Shown: positions 1,903-14,626 of the stretch, one piece after another | Numbering within the stretch: the stretch's first letter is position 1 | How the letters are laid out: the number at the start of each line of letters is the position of its first letter | DNA from: a virus | Virus record (IMG/VR): IMGVR_UViG_3300043664_000006 | Coordinates: 1-51,038 of that record | Length of the DNA stretch: 51,038 nt | Direction: 5' to 3' (one strand) | Translations under genes and position numbers: made by a program | Notes under the pieces: generated by a model | Seen by the model: only the letters and a program-made list of their open reading frames with translations | Databases searched by the model: none | Told to the model about the DNA's origin: nothing

Positions 1903-2946
1903 TTACGCGGACAGAGCTTCAATAGCTCGGCGTAGATAGTCCGGACTGTGCTTGGCATAGACCCGCTCCGTGATCCGAGAATCGCGATGGCCGAGCAGCC
2001 GGGCGATTTCGGAGAACGGCACACCGCGCATCGTCATCCAGGTCGCCGCCGTGTGCCGTAGGATGTGCGGCGTCACGCCTGGCAGGTTGGCGCGCCTCGC
2101 GGCGGCCCGGGTACCCGTCTTCACGCTGGCCACGGGTTTGCCACCATGCTCGATCACGTGTTCGCAGGTCGCCGCCGCCCGTGCGTCTCTCAGGACAGGC
2201 AGCAACTTCGCGCCGATCGGCACGACCGCCCTCCCCTTGCCGCCAGGCGCATCGCCGAGGTCGATCAATCCCGCGTTGAAGTCGACCTGGCCCCAGGTCA
2301 GCTCGAGAACCGCCCCAGCTCGCGCGGCCGTGTAGAGGCATATAGCGAGAAACGTCTTGACGTGCGGGGCCAGGGCTGATCCCAGGAGACGATCGGCCTC
2401 CTCGAGGGAAAGCCAGCGGTCCCTTGGCGCCGGCTGGCGGGGAACCTCGATTTTCGGGACGTCGCTGATCCATTTTCCCTCGAGCGCCCATTTCAAAGCC
2501 GCTCGAAGTGTCACCAGTTCGCGGATGATCGTGCCGTCGCGAATCGGTTTCTTCCGCCTGGTGGCCTTCGGCCCCACGATGTGCCCTTCGGCCCGCCGTT
2601 GTCTGGCGTAGAACCGCGCCCGCTCTTTGGTCAGGTGGTCCGGCTGCAAATCCCCGAGGTGACGCCTGAGCGCATTGCCGGCGGCCTCCAGGGTGGCGTA
2701 CGCGCGTACGACTGGCTTGCGATCAGCGAGATACCCGTCGAGGATCAGCGAGACGGTGGGTTGTTCCGGGGGGGCGGGAGTTCCCCGTCCGGCGACGAAT
2801 TGCGCGAGCCAGATTGAGGCGCGGCGCTTGTCTGTCTCCCCAGTTGAAATGCGTTGCCACGTCCCGTTCTGCCACCAACGGACATAGAAACGATCTCCGC
2901 GCCGGGCGAGCCGGTAGTTTGGGGCGTCGAGTTTGGGCCGCGCCAT
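1903..2946 (-). CDS. int: Tyrosine-recombinase phage integrase
   Basis: This 347-residue protein catalyses site-specific recombination between attP and the host site. The N-terminus has the arm-binding-like start typical of phage integrases (RGDRFYVRWWQNGTW). The catalytic domain shows the first Arg in YTAARAGAVLELTW, the H-x-x-R box in HILRHTAATW, the later His in LLGHRDS and the nucleophilic Tyr in ERVYAKHSP. GAGG lies seven bases before the ATG. The gene is at the distal end of the leftward early operon, next to attP, and its first 202 bp overlap the excisionase-like gene in another frame. All catalytic positions are intact, so it should be active. Confidence 0.95.
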   Translation of the reverse strand: MARPKLDAPNYRLARRGDRFYVRWWQNGTWQRISTGETDKRRASIWLAQFVAGRGTPAPPEQPTVSLILDGYLADRKPVVRAYATLEAAGNALRRHLGDLQPDHLTKERARFYARQRRAEGHIVGPKATRRKKPIRDGTIIRELVTLRAALKWALEGKWISDVPKIEVPRQPAPRDRWLSLEEADRLLGSALAPHVKTFLAICLYTAARAGAVLELTWGQVDFNAGLIDLGDAPGGKGRAVVPIGAKLLPVLRDARAAATCEHVIEHGGKPVASVKTGTRAAARRANLPGVTPHILRHTAATWMTMRGVPFSEIARLLGHRDSRITERVYAKHSPDYLRRAIEALSA

Positions 2947-4413: not shown

Positions 4414-5066
4414 CACGCCGCCTCGATCAGCACGCGGTTGTCGTTCGCGAAGAAGCCAGATGCTCGCGCTTTGACAAGCATTTCATCGCGCATATCGAGG
4501 AATTCGCGGAGCGCCGCGCTCATCTTGGCGATGTAGGGTTCGTCCCTTTCGACGCGGATCAAGGCCGGCGGCAGATCAGGATGATACGCGAATAGATCAA
4601 CGTGACTTAGTTCTGCTACGGCAAGCTGGCCCTGGACCTGTTGTTTGAAATCATCCTCCGGGCCGTCGATCAGGATAGCCATGTGCCCTTCGTCGAGGCG
4701 ACATTTGACCTCGACAGCGCCACGCGTGCCGACGATGAGGCGGTCCGGGCTGCATCCGACCCGCCCGTCGTCGGTCGTAATGAAGCCGACGAGCTTCGTC
4801 TCGGCGTCTGTGATGAACTCGTATTGCTGGATGGCGATCGGCTCAAGCATCCGGCCGCGTTCCATCGCGAACGTGTTCAGCGGCGGCTTCTCCAGGGGCT
4901 TACCCATCAGTGTCTCCGCTACCAATGCGAAGGCATATTTCCGGGCGGACTTTGAGAGGTCGCCGCGCGCTGCTGTCACGATCCTGTGGAATTCGCTCGC
5001 TGTAGGAATCCCGAGGCGCGCCTTGATCCACTCGGGCGAACCCTGCTGCACATCTATGATCTTCAT
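4413..5066 (-). CDS. YqaJ/lambda-exonuclease-type recombination nuclease
   Basis: This 217-residue protein has the marks of the YqaJ viral recombinase family, 5'-3' exonucleases with a PD-(D/E)xK core: QGSPEWIKARLGIPTASEF at the N-terminus, MERGRMLEPIAIQQYE near residue 68, GCSPDRLI with the catalytic Asp near 107, AVEVKC with the E-x-K pair near 120, and a Q-rich helix (FKQQVQGQL) near 138-146. It would resect double-strand ends to give 3' tails for the ERF annealing protein encoded two genes upstream, forming a Red-like pair. It starts in an ATGA overlap with the HNH/AP2 gene. The catalytic residues all appear present. Confidence 0.9.
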   Translation of the reverse strand: MKIIDVQQGSPEWIKARLGIPTASEFHRIVTAARGDLSKSARKYAFALVAETLMGKPLEKPPLNTFAMERGRMLEPIAIQQYEFITDAETKLVGFITTDDGRVGCSPDRLIVGTRGAVEVKCRLDEGHMAILIDGPEDDFKQQVQGQLAVAELSHVDLFAYHPDLPPALIRVERDEPYIAKMSAALREFLDMRDEMLVKARASGFFANDNRVLIEAA

Positions 5067-8467: not shown

Positions 8468-8507
8468 TCCGTGCTACAGTCCGGTCCGGACCACCGGAGC
8501 GGCTATC

Positions 8508-9387: not shown

Positions 9388-9825
9388 TCACCCCGCGGCA
9401 CTTACCGTTCGCTTTTTCTTTGTGTCGGCGCCCCCGCCTATCGACCGGGATGGGGGTGACCTTTCTTTCGGGAGGGGACGGGGCTTGGCCGGTGGCTCGG
9501 CTGGCGGACCGAGGGGGAGTAGACCCTGGGCGACTAAGGCCAGAGTCTCTCGCTTCCGCTCATCCAGGACCGCGTAGGAAGCGAGGATGGTGGCAAGGTT
9601 CGGATCGTCCGGTGGCGCTGGCGCCCCGGTTATCAATTCTTGCCACGACACACCGAGATGCGGCGCGAGGCGCCTGGCCCATTCGACGGTCAGCTTCCGG
9701 TGGCCTTTTCGGAGGTTGAAAATCTGCTGCTTGGTAATTTCCAACGGCCGCGCGAGGTCGGGGTCCGTCAGCCCCTTCGCACGCATGAACCGCGCCAGGT
9801 GGTTGGGATAAGGCCCTTCCGTCAT
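9388..9825 (-). CDS. cI: XRE-family lysogeny repressor (CI-like)
   Basis: This 145-residue protein has an N-terminal Cro/C1-type helix-turn-helix at residues about 8-62 (HLARFMRAKGLTDPDLA, recognition region KQQIFNLRKGHRKL). The C-terminal half is Pro- and Lys-rich and has no LexA-type peptidase motif, so induction would not use RecA-driven self-cleavage. It faces the Cro-like gene across an 84-bp switch holding two operators. Its ATG lies only about ten bases after a TTTACT -10 box, so the mRNA is probably leaderless, as for lambda cI from its maintenance promoter. The repressor role rests on position and domain. Confidence 0.85.
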   Translation of the reverse strand: MTEGPYPNHLARFMRAKGLTDPDLARPLEITKQQIFNLRKGHRKLTVEWARRLAPHLGVSWQELITGAPAPPDDPNLATILASYAVLDERKRETLALVAQGLLPLGPPAEPPAKPRPLPKERSPPSRSIGGGADTKKKRTVSAAG

Positions 9826-10722: not shown

Positions 10723-10900
10723 CGCACATGACGCGCCCGCGCGACGGCCCAATGCCGGTCACCGCTCACACGTCGAACAGTCTCGCTCCGGCGGGAAATG
10801 GGGAATCGCGTCGCCTGTCCGAGGCGACAACGGAGGCGCGTACGTTACGGGTCTGGACCCCGCGACATACGCTACCCGTCACATCATCAGGCATAGAAAA

Positions 10901-10928
10901 TCGCAAGTCCCGACCAAAAGACTTGCGA
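10901..10928 (+). promoter_or_regulatory. Perfect hairpin next to the gcrA ribosome binding site
   Basis: TCGCAAGTC and GACTTGCGA form a perfect 9-bp stem around a ten-base loop (CCGACCAAAA). One base later comes the strong ribosome binding site AGGAGG (10930-10935) of the GcrA-like gene. There is no T-run, so it is not a simple terminator. It could be a protein-binding operator, a 5' mRNA stabiliser or a translational control element. The 10723-10900 stretch upstream holds no gene I can support. Confidence 0.65.
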
Positions 10929-10945
10929 CAGGAGGCACCTTGGAA

Positions 10946-11719
10946 ATGCCCTCGGGGAATGGACCAGAACGGCACCCGTCGTCAAGTCTGAATATCAAGA
11001 CTGACGAAACGCCGGCCAAACCGCGAACCGAAGCGGAGTGGCGCAGGCTGCTCCAGCCGTTCGCTGATTCGTCATACGCGACATGGTCCGACGATGATCT
11101 GGTGACGCTCTGCCGGGAATGGTGTGCCGGCACCTCGACCGCTCGGATTGGCGCTCTCATTGGGAAGACTAAGAACGCCGCGGTCGGCAAATCGCATCGG
11201 TTGATCAAAGCCGGAATCCTTCAGCCCCGGCCATCGCCGATCCTCGCACGCTGGGCACATCTCGGACCCCGTCCCGTTCAACCCCTACACGCGCCGAAGG
11301 TCACACTCCCAGGGATCGCGAGTGTCCCCGCTCCGCCTCCTCCACCGGTGCGCGCGGTCCGGAAGGTCACGGTGACCCACGAATCGACTCGGGGACCGGC
11401 GGTCACGGCCGAGGTCTGGGTCACCGCCGAGTACGACGCCGGGCAGGTGATCGTCGGAGCGAGTCCCGTGCCGGCCGCGACTCGGACCCCACCCGCGACT
11501 CCGACTCAACCGCGCCCGATTCGCGCGCCCCAGCCCCGACCCTACGGCCGGATCACCGAGTGCTGCTGGCCGATCGGAGAACCCGGCACCCGCGCGTTCC
11601 ACTTCTGCGACGTCCCGTCCGACCCCGGCATTTCGTATTGCGGCGATCACGCCCGGGTCGCGTTCGTCAGAATCCGCCCGCCGGCCCGCGTGGATGATTA
11701 CGCGAGGCCCGACCCATGA
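10946..11719 (+). CDS. gcrA: GcrA-type cell-cycle regulator homologue
   Basis: This 257-residue protein has both halves of GcrA: an N-terminal DNA-binding domain at residues about 47-100 (WSDDDLVTLCREWCAGTST, then IGKTKNAAVGKSHRLIKAG) and a C-terminal sigma70-contacting domain (CCWPIGEPGTRAFHFCD, YCGDHARVAF) with the usual Cys/His set. Host GcrA binds sigma70 and activates promoters holding methylated GANTC. The linker is longer and Pro/Thr-rich, and its codons contain seven GANTC sites. AGGAGG lies ten bases before the ATG; a TTG six bases earlier is less likely. In a phage it could tie early transcription to host methylation state. Confidence 0.88.
   Translation: MPSGNGPERHPSSSLNIKTDETPAKPRTEAEWRRLLQPFADSSYATWSDDDLVTLCREWCAGTSTARIGALIGKTKNAAVGKSHRLIKAGILQPRPSPILARWAHLGPRPVQPLHAPKVTLPGIASVPAPPPPPVRAVRKVTVTHESTRGPAVTAEVWVTAEYDAGQVIVGASPVPAATRTPPATPTQPRPIRAPQPRPYGRITECCWPIGEPGTRAFHFCDVPSDPGISYCGDHARVAFVRIRPPARVDDYARPDP
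11381..11522. other. GANTC cluster inside gcrA
   Basis: Seven GANTC sites start at 11381, 11386, 11461, 11479, 11497, 11503 and 11518, against about 0.6 expected by chance in 142 bp. They lie in the linker-coding part of the GcrA-like gene. GANTC is the CcrM methylation target and the site through which GcrA acts. Confidence 0.75.
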
Positions 11720-11967
11720 CAGTGCGCATCTGTCACTCCTGCGCCGCCACCAGCGTCGAGACCAGGTTCCCGCGCAAGATCCGGGGCCAGCCCGCACCGA
11801 AGCTGTGCCTGGCCTGCGAGGCGACGGCCCTCGTTCAATCCGCTCCGATCGAGTGGCCAACCAACCCGCGCCCGGCACAGACCCGAGCGAGCTACCGGGC
11901 GGCGTACCGCGCCAGGCTCAAAAGCGCCCAGGGCGACCTCGTGGACCTTCTGGTCAAGCCGCCATGA
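11716..11967 (+). CDS. Small zinc-finger-like protein
   Basis: This 83-residue protein starts in a 4-bp overlap with gcrA. Two Cys pairs (CHSC near residue 6 and CLAC near residue 31) frame a basic loop, as in a four-Cys zinc finger; the rest is Arg/Ala-rich (YRAAYRARLKSA). It may bind nucleic acid. No known family is assigned. Confidence 0.65.
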   Translation: MTVRICHSCAATSVETRFPRKIRGQPAPKLCLACEATALVQSAPIEWPTNPRPAQTRASYRAAYRARLKSAQGDLVDLLVKPP

Positions 11968-12047
11968 TGGTCACCCTGCTCTGGATCGGCATCCTCTGCA
12001 TCGTCGGCGCCGCGCTCAGCCGCGAATCCAAGCGGCGGCCGCCATGA
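11964..12047 (+). CDS. 27-residue membrane microprotein
   Basis: This short gene overlaps the previous and next genes by ATGA at both ends. The product is a single hydrophobic helix (MMVTLLWIGILCIVGAAL) with a basic tail (SRESKRRPP). Its exact fit between coupled neighbours supports translation. The function is unknown. Confidence 0.5.
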   Translation: MMVTLLWIGILCIVGAALSRESKRRPP

Positions 12048-12262
12048 GCGACGCCATCCCCGATATCGCGGCCGAGAGCGCGGGCAACGTCGCCTACGGC
12101 GCGGCGATGCAGGCGGTTATCGCGGCGGCGAGGGCGTGGCGTGGGGCAGCGGGATGGATAACGCCATCAGGCTACGTGCCGCACCAGCACCGCCGCCTGG
12201 TTGATGCGATAGACGCTCTCGACGCGCTTGAGGCGCGGTTGCGGGAGCGCGGGACGCCATGA
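12044..12262 (+). CDS. Hypothetical small helical protein
   Basis: This 72-residue Ala-rich protein overlaps both neighbours by four bases. It has a hydrophobic helix (YGAAMQAVIAAARAW) and an amphipathic C-terminal helix (HRRLVDAIDALDALEARLRER). No family is recognised. Confidence 0.6.
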   Translation: MSDAIPDIAAESAGNVAYGAAMQAVIAAARAWRGAAGWITPSGYVPHQHRRLVDAIDALDALEARLRERGTP

Positions 12263-12612
12263 GCGACGCACCCGAGCAGGGCACCCACGCCCTCACCCCG
12301 GAACTCTCCCGCGCGATCGACGACGTCCTCGTGGCGGGACACTCGCAGAGGCATTGGCTCAAAGCCGGGCACCCGCCGTTCGAAAGTTCGCTCGCCGAAG
12401 GGATGGCGCATTACGGCTCCTTACCGGGTGCCGCGTTCGACCTTTGGACGATGTGCCGGGCGATCGAAAAACTCCGGCTGGCATGGACCGGTCAGGCCGG
12501 GCCCGCGGCGGTGCCGGGACCGATCGAGGTGCCGGACGAAGCGCCAGGGCTCACGACGGAACTCGCGAGGGGCGGGGACGCCGAGGCCGAGCAACCGCGG
12601 TTGCCGGAATAG
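12259..12612 (+). CDS. Hypothetical early protein
   Basis: This 117-residue acidic protein starts by ATGA overlap. A central segment (FESSLAEGMAHYGSLPGAAFDLWTM) is the best-conserved-looking part; the C-terminus is Glu/Pro-rich. It may be soluble and cytoplasmic. No family is recognised. Confidence 0.55.
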   Translation: MSDAPEQGTHALTPELSRAIDDVLVAGHSQRHWLKAGHPPFESSLAEGMAHYGSLPGAAFDLWTMCRAIEKLRLAWTGQAGPAAVPGPIEVPDEAPGLTTELARGGDAEAEQPRLPE

Positions 12613-12956
12613 TGCCAGGGGAGGCGGACAATCCGGACGGCGAATTCTGCCCCTGGACTCCGACTCCGCGCCAAACCCCGACGCCGGCCGAGCGACAGGC
12701 ATTCAAGGCAAGCATCGAGTTCGCGATCCAGGCGAAGTACCCAATTCGCCGGAACAAGGAACTGACGCCCGAGCAGTTGAGCATTCTCCGGGCGACTCAA
12801 CTTGGCGATGGCGCACCCTTCGCGACCCGGCGCGCGGCGTCGGCGCCGAAACCTCCCATCCGCGATCGTCGACCGCTGACGCCCGAGGAGCTGCGGGCGG
12901 CGCGGCGTGAGCAGCTTGGCGACCGGATGTTCGACGACGACGGGCCGCTCCGTTGA
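12612..12956 (+). CDS. Hypothetical protein with an internal duplicated motif
   Basis: The GTG start shares one base with the upstream TAG. In the 114-residue product the motif LTPEQLSILRATQLGDG (about residues 57-73) recurs as LTPEELRAARREQLGDR (about residues 90-106), so a short helical unit appears twice. The N-terminus is Pro/Thr-rich. It lies directly before the replication-initiator-like gene, which it overlaps by four bases, so an accessory role in replication is possible. Confidence 0.55.
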   Translation: MPGEADNPDGEFCPWTPTPRQTPTPAERQAFKASIEFAIQAKYPIRRNKELTPEQLSILRATQLGDGAPFATRRAASAPKPPIRDRRPLTPEELRAARREQLGDRMFDDDGPLR

Positions 12957-13816
12957 GCGGTCCGCCCGACAATCGCGACTGGCTCTCGCTCCCGCGGGAA
13001 GAGCAGCGAAGGCTGGTCGCGGACGATCTCATGCGCTTCGTCTACCTCTCGCCCATACAATTCGACGCCGGCCGCGCGGCCCTCCGCGGCATCGTTGGCG
13101 GCACGGTTGACCAGGCGGTGGCCAGGATACACGCCGCGGTCGAGGCCGCCGCCGCCCCTGAGACGGTCGCCTCCCGCCAGGCCGCTGAGATCGCCGCGCG
13201 CCCTCGACCCGTGCCAGTCGTCTCATCAGCGCCCCTCGCGGATGCACTGCCCAACGTGGCGCGACGCGCCATCGGACTCGAAGTCAGGAACCCGCCGGTC
13301 CATCGCGCGCAGATCAAACCCATCCCCGGGGAGATCGACACCGAGGGTTGGCTCGCACGCGTACGCATCCTTCCGGTGTGGCAAAACCTGAGTGCCAAGT
13401 GTCGGATGTCGATCGCCCGCGCCATCGTCTGGGGCCTTGGCAAGGCCGCCAGACCCGAGGATGCGGTAAGGGGCGTCTCGCAGCTCAGTTACACGAGCAT
13501 CGCGACGGCGGCGCAGTGTTCGCGCGTCCAGGTCTGGCGCGCGATACGCCAGTTCGAGGCCTTCGGCATCCTCGACACGTTCAATGTGATCGTCCGGGTT
13601 GGCAATGACAAATTGCGCGACCCGAACGCGTATGTCCTGCGGGGATTCACCAAGGCGATCCCCGTGGTCGTTGAAGCGGTGCGGGACAAGATCACCGGAG
13701 CCTTCGACCGGATGAACGAGCAGCTTCGGCGCTTTGTCGACGTGTGGGACATGAAGGCCAACCATTGGGGCCTTCGCGCCACGCCAACGTCGCGGACATA
13801 CCCCCGGCCTACCTGA
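12953..13816 (+). CDS. Replication-initiator-like winged-helix protein
   Basis: This 287-residue protein starts at TTG in a TTGA overlap. The central part carries a winged helix-turn-helix (about residues 175-215, LSYTSIATAAQCSRVQVWRAI, FEAFGILDTFNVIVRVGN), a type common in phage replication initiators that bind repeats next to their own gene. The N-terminal 100 residues are helical. Directly downstream is a non-coding stretch rich in GANTC sites and hairpins, then a DnaA domain-IV protein, which supports a replication role. No helicase or primase is encoded, so host enzymes would be recruited. The initiator role is inferred. Confidence 0.6.
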   Translation: MSGPPDNRDWLSLPREEQRRLVADDLMRFVYLSPIQFDAGRAALRGIVGGTVDQAVARIHAAVEAAAAPETVASRQAAEIAARPRPVPVVSSAPLADALPNVARRAIGLEVRNPPVHRAQIKPIPGEIDTEGWLARVRILPVWQNLSAKCRMSIARAIVWGLGKAARPEDAVRGVSQLSYTSIATAAQCSRVQVWRAIRQFEAFGILDTFNVIVRVGNDKLRDPNAYVLRGFTKAIPVVVEAVRDKITGAFDRMNEQLRRFVDVWDMKANHWGLRATPTSRTYPRPT

Positions 13817-14293
13817 GCAACGTCCTCGCGGACCGCGTGGCAACCGGGTGATCCCCGGCGGGAACGGCTGCGCTGGTCGCTGAATCCTCCGATTCCGCCT
13901 TCAAAATCCGCTGAAAAACAGTCTCCGCGGGCGAGTCCATGGCCGGTTTTTGAGTCAACCCGCGGAAAAGAGTCGCTGTTTCGTTGCGCTTTCGCCTCGG
14001 TATTCGTGCTGCGGTGCGAAGCTAAGTTTAATGGTGAAACGGGATCAGGCAGATCAGAAAGTAAGAAAGAATCGCGGAGCGCCCCTTGGGCGCATCTACC
14101 GGCTCTCGAATGGGGGCTGCGCCCCCCTTGGCGCCAAAGGCGCCCACCCCCTGCGCTCGCTTCGCTCGCCACGCGAAAGATTGCTCGACAGAAGGAGCGC
14201 GTTGAGAGGGCGGAGCGCCGATCCAACCGTCGGCGACCGGATGGACGTGACTCGCGTCCACCGTGCATAACCGGAGGATCGTGGGGAAAACTC
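13817..14293. other. ori: Candidate replication origin: GANTC- and hairpin-rich region
   Basis: This 477-bp stretch has no supportable gene. Five GANTC sites fall within 93 bp (starts 13882, 13891, 13933, 13952, 13970) and two more at 14069 and 14249. CCGCGGG at about 13926 is inverted as CCCGCGG at about 13959. Hairpins follow: GCGCCC-CTT-GGGCGC (14079-14093), GGGGGC-TGC-GCCCCC (14112-14126) and GGCGCC-AAA-GGCGCC (14130-14144), with CGCTCG repeated on either side of CTT (14155-14169). Parts between are A-rich. It lies between the initiator-like gene and the DnaA-domain gene, where phage origins are often found. Confidence 0.55.
14262..14270 (-). promoter_or_regulatory. DnaA-box-like site
   Basis: On the minus strand TTATGCACG matches the DnaA box TTATnCACA except at the last base. 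It lies 24 bp before the gene for a DnaA domain-IV protein. One near-match alone is weak evidence. Confidence 0.35.
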
Positions 14294-14626
14294 ATGCCCT
14301 GGTTGGTTGAGCCGCCGATCACCGCGATTCAGGAAGCGGTCTGCACTGTGTTCAGGGTGACCGCGATCGACCTCGTCTCCGATCGAAGGGACCGAAGAGT
14401 GGTCAACGCCCGGCATGCCGCGATGTGGCTGGCCCGCCGAGCCTCACACACCTTGATCGCGATCGGCCGGGAATTCGGCGGCCGCCATCAAACGACCGCC
14501 GCCAACGCAGTCCGGAGGGTCGATCAGGTGATGATCGAGGATCCGGTCCTCGCATCGGTGATGACGGAGCTTGCCGCCGAGGTCGATCGCATGGCGCGCC
14601 AGGGACTTCGCACCCATGCCGCGTGA
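14294..14626 (+). CDS. DnaA domain-IV-like DNA-binding protein
   Basis: This 110-residue protein is close to the C-terminal DNA-binding domain of DnaA alone: AVCTVFRVTAIDLVSDRRDRR, then VVNARHAAMWLARRASHTLIA, then IGREFGGRHQTTAANAVRRV. The signature region GGRDHTT of DnaA reads GGRHQTT here, so Asp is replaced by His, which may alter box recognition. No ATPase domain is present, so it cannot open an origin itself. It may bind DnaA boxes in the phage origin or compete with host DnaA at oriC. It starts at 14294 with GGGG about seven bases upstream. Confidence 0.85.
   Translation: MPWLVEPPITAIQEAVCTVFRVTAIDLVSDRRDRRVVNARHAAMWLARRASHTLIAIGREFGGRHQTTAANAVRRVDQVMIEDPVLASVMTELAAEVDRMARQGLRTHAA

Follow-up and report, generated by a model that had tools for sequence, protein, structure and literature searches.

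Clusters of GANTC sites beside gcrA and at a probable replication origin in a group of phages

The window analysed here, an IMG/VR virus record taken over its whole length of 51,038 bp, looks from its gene content like a temperate phage: it encodes a tyrosine integrase, recombination proteins of the YqaJ and ERF families (identified in a family scan of the ORFs) and a cI-like repressor whose gene is divergent to a cro-like gene. Its rightward early operon comprises, in order, gcrA, several small genes, rep, a noncoding region and an orphan gene for DnaA domain IV, after which come the terminase, portal and tail genes. No tRNA genes were found in the window. The main features are as follows.

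1903–2946, minus strand: tyrosine integrase
9388–9825, minus strand: cI-like repressor gene, matching helix-turn-helix (HTH) families, with homologues in the relatives L007 and L053
from about 9910, plus strand: cro-like gene
10940–11719, plus strand: gcrA, encoding a GcrA-family protein (PF07750, E = 1.4e-16, residues 48–244) and starting with TTG at 10940 or ATG at 10946
12953–13816, plus strand: rep, a winged-HTH replication-initiator-like gene with weak HTH matches and a weak PHROG match to HTH DNA-binding proteins
13817–14293, noncoding: post-rep region with seven GANTC sites, a probable replication origin
14294–14626, plus strand: orphan DnaA domain IV gene (PF08299, E = 1.5e-18), with an assumed start at 14294 and an open frame that extends further upstream

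Searches of viral contigs at the protein and DNA levels yielded five syntenic relatives (L002, L007, L008, L049 and L053) and one partial relative (L036), which was the sole new relative from DNA pattern scans that otherwise returned mainly chance matches. No relatives turned up in scans of genome contigs or in an annotated phage collection. The host is presumably an alphaproteobacterium, because the phage carries gcrA, and the presence of CcrM in that host is our assumption, since virus records are the sole source of both the window and its relatives. A CcrM-like N6-adenine methyltransferase (PF01555) had no match in the window and one in the contig of L049.

Host GcrA reads CcrM-methylated GANTC sites and so times transcription through the cell cycle, and GcrA genes of phages have been known since 2012. 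The initial annotation had proposed that this phage encodes a GcrA homologue, and the family match was borne out by a phmmer search of PDB sequences, in which both the N-terminal methyl-GANTC-binding domain and the C-terminal sigma70-interacting domain that characterize PF07750 were found, with 7ye1 matching the two together.

about 11081–11203, plus strand: GcrA DNA-binding domain (Pfam and PDB matches over residues 48–88; PDB entry 5yiu)
about 11546–11668, plus strand: GcrA sigma-interacting domain (residues 203–243; PDB entry 5yix)

Judged by its sequence, the protein is complete in outline, with both DNA-binding and sigma-binding domains. In the AlphaFold model, only the DNA-binding region was confidently predicted (pLDDT about 90 or more), which explains why Foldseek returned no significant match with it. 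Among the relatives, L008, L053 and one of the two gcrA copies of L002 encode proteins in which the sigma domain is accompanied by an additional HTH-like domain at the N-terminus. The GcrA proteins of L007 and L049 have no sigma domain, and sigma recruitment therefore cannot be the common function of these proteins. Genes for the DNA-binding domain only lie at 8506–8862 in L007, at about 7086–7457 in L049 and at 1943–2278 in L002, and their products might act as competitors of host GcrA instead of activators.

Across the window, GANTC is depleted, with 147 sites observed versus 266 expected (observed/expected, 0.56), the lowest ratio among eight composition-matched palindromes. Two clusters noted in the initial annotation stand out on this background: seven sites in 142 bp of gcrA (cluster A; 11381, 11386, 11461, 11479, 11497, 11503 and 11518) and five sites in 93 bp just after rep (cluster B; 13882, 13891, 13933, 13952 and 13970), all of which were located as described.

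11381–11522: GANTC cluster A, in the linker-coding part of gcrA (site count)

Cluster A is the densest 142-bp stretch of GANTC in the 51 kb. When 147 sites were placed at random, seven in 142 bp had P = 0.0006 and five in 93 bp had P = 0.015. The gene as a whole contains 10 sites versus 2.95 expected from codon-usage shuffles (P about 5e-5), its clustered part was matched in none of 20,000 such shuffles, and the excess was reproduced with a second usage table. The extended motif YGAKTCK, described in Caulobacter for activation by GcrA (PMC7987155), fits five of the seven cluster A sites compared with 28 of 140 elsewhere (P = 0.0065, in a comparison picked post hoc with the data already seen) and none of the five in cluster B. 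Cluster A is thus real in the window, yet it is not a feature kept among the relatives: the codon test revealed no GANTC excess in gcrA of L002 or L053, and the gene is shorter in L007 and L049. A gcrA cluster in L008 was considered as common with that of the window and rejected, being predicted by its amino acids.

A smaller array of GACTC sites lies near the start of the ORF that precedes rep.

12656–12666: two GACTC sites with a 6-bp period (site count)

The same place holds three sites in L002, where the array falls in a different reading frame, four in L007 and five in L049. In the codon test, the array was significant in the window (P = 0.014 to 0.021) and in L007 (P = 0.003 to 0.008) and not in L002, where amino acids explain it. 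The array may have arisen by slippage. Such arrays raise the possibility of a compositional accident, in which low-complexity linkers (TP, DS and ES repeats) and slippage generate functionless GANTC arrays. The coding arrays do sit in linkers, and amino acids account for two of them, in gcrA of L008 and before rep in L002, and for part of the L053 repeats described below. We nevertheless regard this explanation as very unlikely, because the gcrA cluster of the window exceeds codon-matched shuffles, the excess in the noncoding post-rep region, which cannot stem from protein repeats, already weakens it, and an early-region excess is seen in six of six phages.

That excess amounts to a GANTC density 2.0 to 3.4 times that of the rest of the contig in all six syntenic phages, window included, with per-phage P values of 0.023 to 1.7e-5. 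Among 16 palindromes, GANTC took the first or second rank in every phage and the first when pooled (ratio, 2.35). Gene order was our guide in delimiting the early region, which runs from cI as far as the second integrase, except in L007, where it reaches the locus end, and in L002, where it stops at the next block of genes. Because of this choice and of the shared descent of the relatives, the P values are not fully independent. Array positions vary among the phages, and three other, non-syntenic GcrA loci (L003, L004 and L005) have no GANTC clusters.

The strongest signal comes from the post-rep noncoding region, where seven GANTC sites were found versus 2.5 expected from dinucleotide shuffles (P = 0.002), so that both clusters of the initial annotation exceed a shuffled expectation. 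Pooled over five phages (the window, L007, L008, L049 and L002), the corresponding regions contain 31 sites versus 10.1 expected (z = 7.2; P below 0.001 to 0.06 per phage), and GANTC came top of 16 matched palindromes with the runner-up at z = 3.0. The region is kept in L007, L008, L049 and L036, the last of which takes the place of L002 in the alignment used for conservation, and the expectation that the clusters would be kept in relatives with gcrA therefore holds for cluster B and fails for cluster A. Within the region lie two further features.

13923–13958: conserved block CTCCGCGGGCGANTC-N14-GAGTCAA, with two GANTC sites 19 bp apart, in five phages (the window, L007, L008, L049 and L036)
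14019–14078: 60-bp stretch with the highest AT content in the early region (58%; mean, 34%), a possible unwinding element

The block varies in L049, which has CCCC for CTCC, and within CCGCGGGCGANTC, around its first GANTC, the sole change among the five phages is at the N position, again in L049. Positions 13951–13957 read TGAGTCA, the sole TGASTCA in the window, and the AT-richest stretch sits just downstream of the block in both the window and L007. A 19-bp GANTC pair in L002 was not counted as a counterpart, since the alignment puts it at another site.

Being kept in relatives, cluster B probably marks an origin, and we consider replication origin the most likely role of the noncoding region, judging from its anatomy. 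DnaA boxes were below the chance number, and a structured RNA was considered and rejected, with an unfavourable covariation term (+8.39) and no Rfam match in the region. The neighbouring rep gene has homologues in L002, L007, L008 and L049 that have in common an HTH part and a C-terminal RTxPxP-like motif and otherwise differ. PHROG replication-initiation matches for the L002 and L007 homologues were weak, no significant similarity of rep to known initiator families was found, and the predicted Rep structure model was poor. Orphan DnaA domain IV genes directly follow the probable origin in both the window (14294–14626) and L008 (11898–12242).

The initial annotation had put its origin candidate just after the initiator-like gene; the AT-rich stretch adds to this placement, as do GANTC repeats within the initiator gene of L053, a phage that has no post-rep noncoding region of the window type.

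4066–5505 of L053: initiator gene, encoding a DnaA_N domain at the C-terminus of its product (E = 2.8e-13)

This gene contains 15 GANTC sites in 270 bp, mostly within TGAGTCAC repeats, five of which follow a 15-bp period and are joined by inverted copies around a strong palindrome at about 4785–4845 (fold z = −6.6). The repeats lie in coding sequence and are partly explained by amino acids in the codon test, and the repeat-linked motifs CTNAG and GTNAC cluster with them. Lambda-type O genes likewise carry iterons within coding sequence near the early operon, whereas the window and the relatives other than L053 have their sites in noncoding DNA after rep. On anatomical grounds, the L053 array is our best evidence that GANTC-rich DNA may serve as origin.

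These repeats also provide the case for the main rival explanation, an iteron origin whose initiator recognizes a TGAGTCA-like core, the CcrM site inside it being incidental and its methylation without a role. In its favour, the L053 repeats have TGAGTCAC in common, beyond the 5-bp site, their TGAGTCA core occurs in the window once and inside the post-rep block, and CTNAG and GTNAC co-cluster with the repeats. Clear repeats are seen in L053, and the window has only the two-site block and the AT-rich stretch as iteron-origin features. Three observations speak against this explanation: the flanks of the post-rep GANTC sites are varied, the GANTC excess of the window reaches gcrA and the ORF before rep, and the N position changes inside an otherwise kept stretch. 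We consider an iteron origin of this type a serious but doubtful alternative.

The clusters could instead concern transcription only, as early promoters dependent on phage or host GcrA, with the post-rep region a promoter for downstream genes and not an origin. The full GcrA with its sigma domain and the fit of YGAKTCK to most cluster A sites agree with this proposal, as does a −35-like TTGAC element before cro, which overlaps GACTC in L002 (724–730), L007 (7607–7613), L008 (7607–7613) and L049 (6249–6255); the corresponding element is TTGACC in the window and TTGACA in L053, both without GANTC. But the two clusters yielded no sigma70-like promoter, the sites of cluster B do not match YGAKTCK, and the gene 3' of the conserved block differs from phage to phage while the block stays, which speaks against a promoter dedicated to a single gene. 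Overall, we judge a purely transcriptional role unlikely.

The reading that we tentatively favour, while giving it somewhat less than an even chance, is that replication and early transcription both respond to methylation. The early and replication module of this temperate and presumably alphaproteobacterial phage would be built to respond to GANTC methylation of the CcrM type. Origin GANTC sites would be part of, or overlap, binding sites of the initiation complex, presumably including Rep, and their full, hemi- or absent methylation by host CcrM would change initiation, as has been proposed for repABC origins. Phage GcrA would bind methylated GANTC promoters and recruit RNA polymerase to them, within the early region of the phage and probably also in its host. 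Against this reading count the varying array positions, the misfit of cluster B to YGAKTCK and the absence of clusters from L003, L004 and L005. A role in timing is conceivable as well. CcrM is active solely late in the host cycle, and fast phage replication would therefore leave the early region and origin, dense in GANTC, stripped of methylation. Phage GcrA, reading this loss, might shut down early transcription or renewed initiation once a few rounds of copying have passed, or keep a prophage synchronized with the cycle of its host, although we think such a methylation clock distinctly unlikely.

Several known systems resemble parts of the favoured arrangement. The nearest working parallel is the repABC module of Agrobacterium, whose expression and ori2 firing are influenced by CcrM and GcrA and whose promoters and origin hold GANTC in excess of expectation (PMC11514494); by this analogy, methylation control is plausible for the phage. 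The window is like such replicons (for example, A. tumefaciens ori2) in the GANTC excess of its replication module, a likeness rather than membership: the ORFs scanned contain no repA, repB or repC families, and the window is a temperate phage with unrelated initiators and its own GcrA. In Vibrio cholerae, the RctB iterons of ori2 contain GATC, and initiator binding depends on methylation (PMC6090056). Here too repeats contain a methylation site, although that case concerns Dam and GATC on a chromosome, compared with CcrM and GANTC on a phage in which any methylation dependence is putative. Two reports count against the favoured reading: RepC binding in repABC is reported to be methylation-independent in vitro (PMC6090056), and a survey of alphaproteobacterial phages found GcrA sites without asymmetry (PMC9437464).

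Among phages, phiCbK encodes a PF07750 protein, gp222, that was proposed to influence the host cell cycle (PMC3556154); phiCbK itself, at 205 kb and with a T7-like polymerase, differs from the window, and GANTC clustering is not reported for it. Sinorhizobium phiLM21-like prophages are temperate with an annotated GcrA, as is the window, and no description of a GANTC-rich origin in them was found (PMC12429752). According to an entry in the reference list of that paper, phiLM21 encodes a methyltransferase whose specificity is CcrM-like, while the window has no PF01555 methyltransferase. In Brevundimonas, expression of a prophage region was reported to depend on GcrA (PMC7987155). The literature searched contained no report of GANTC clusters at a phage origin beside a phage gcrA, and none naming target sites of phage GcrA on a phage genome. 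The phage group described here offers such candidate sites both beside gcrA and at a probable origin, with those at the origin kept in relatives. If methylation is how the sites act, a form of replication control by CcrM and GcrA that is otherwise described for secondary chromosomes and megaplasmids of alphaproteobacteria would extend to a phage. The phage may thus couple its gene expression or its copying to the host's methylation clock.

Finally, the fold analysis revealed a hairpin just upstream of gcrA.

10900–10929, minus strand: leftward intrinsic-terminator-like hairpin

A comparable hairpin occurs upstream of every gcrA in the group that encodes a sigma domain (L002, about 1805–1840; L008, 8657–8686; L053, 2618–2650), the structure being kept while the sequence differs (z = −3.0 to −3.8), and none was found upstream of gcrA in L007 or L049. 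This arrangement suggests that an antisense transcript of gcrA terminates at this point. Further GANTC clusters lie beyond the early region in L002 (8903–9051, in a ParB-like gene), in L036 (2573–2618, near terS) and in L067 (2162–2196), the last being further along the contig of L049.
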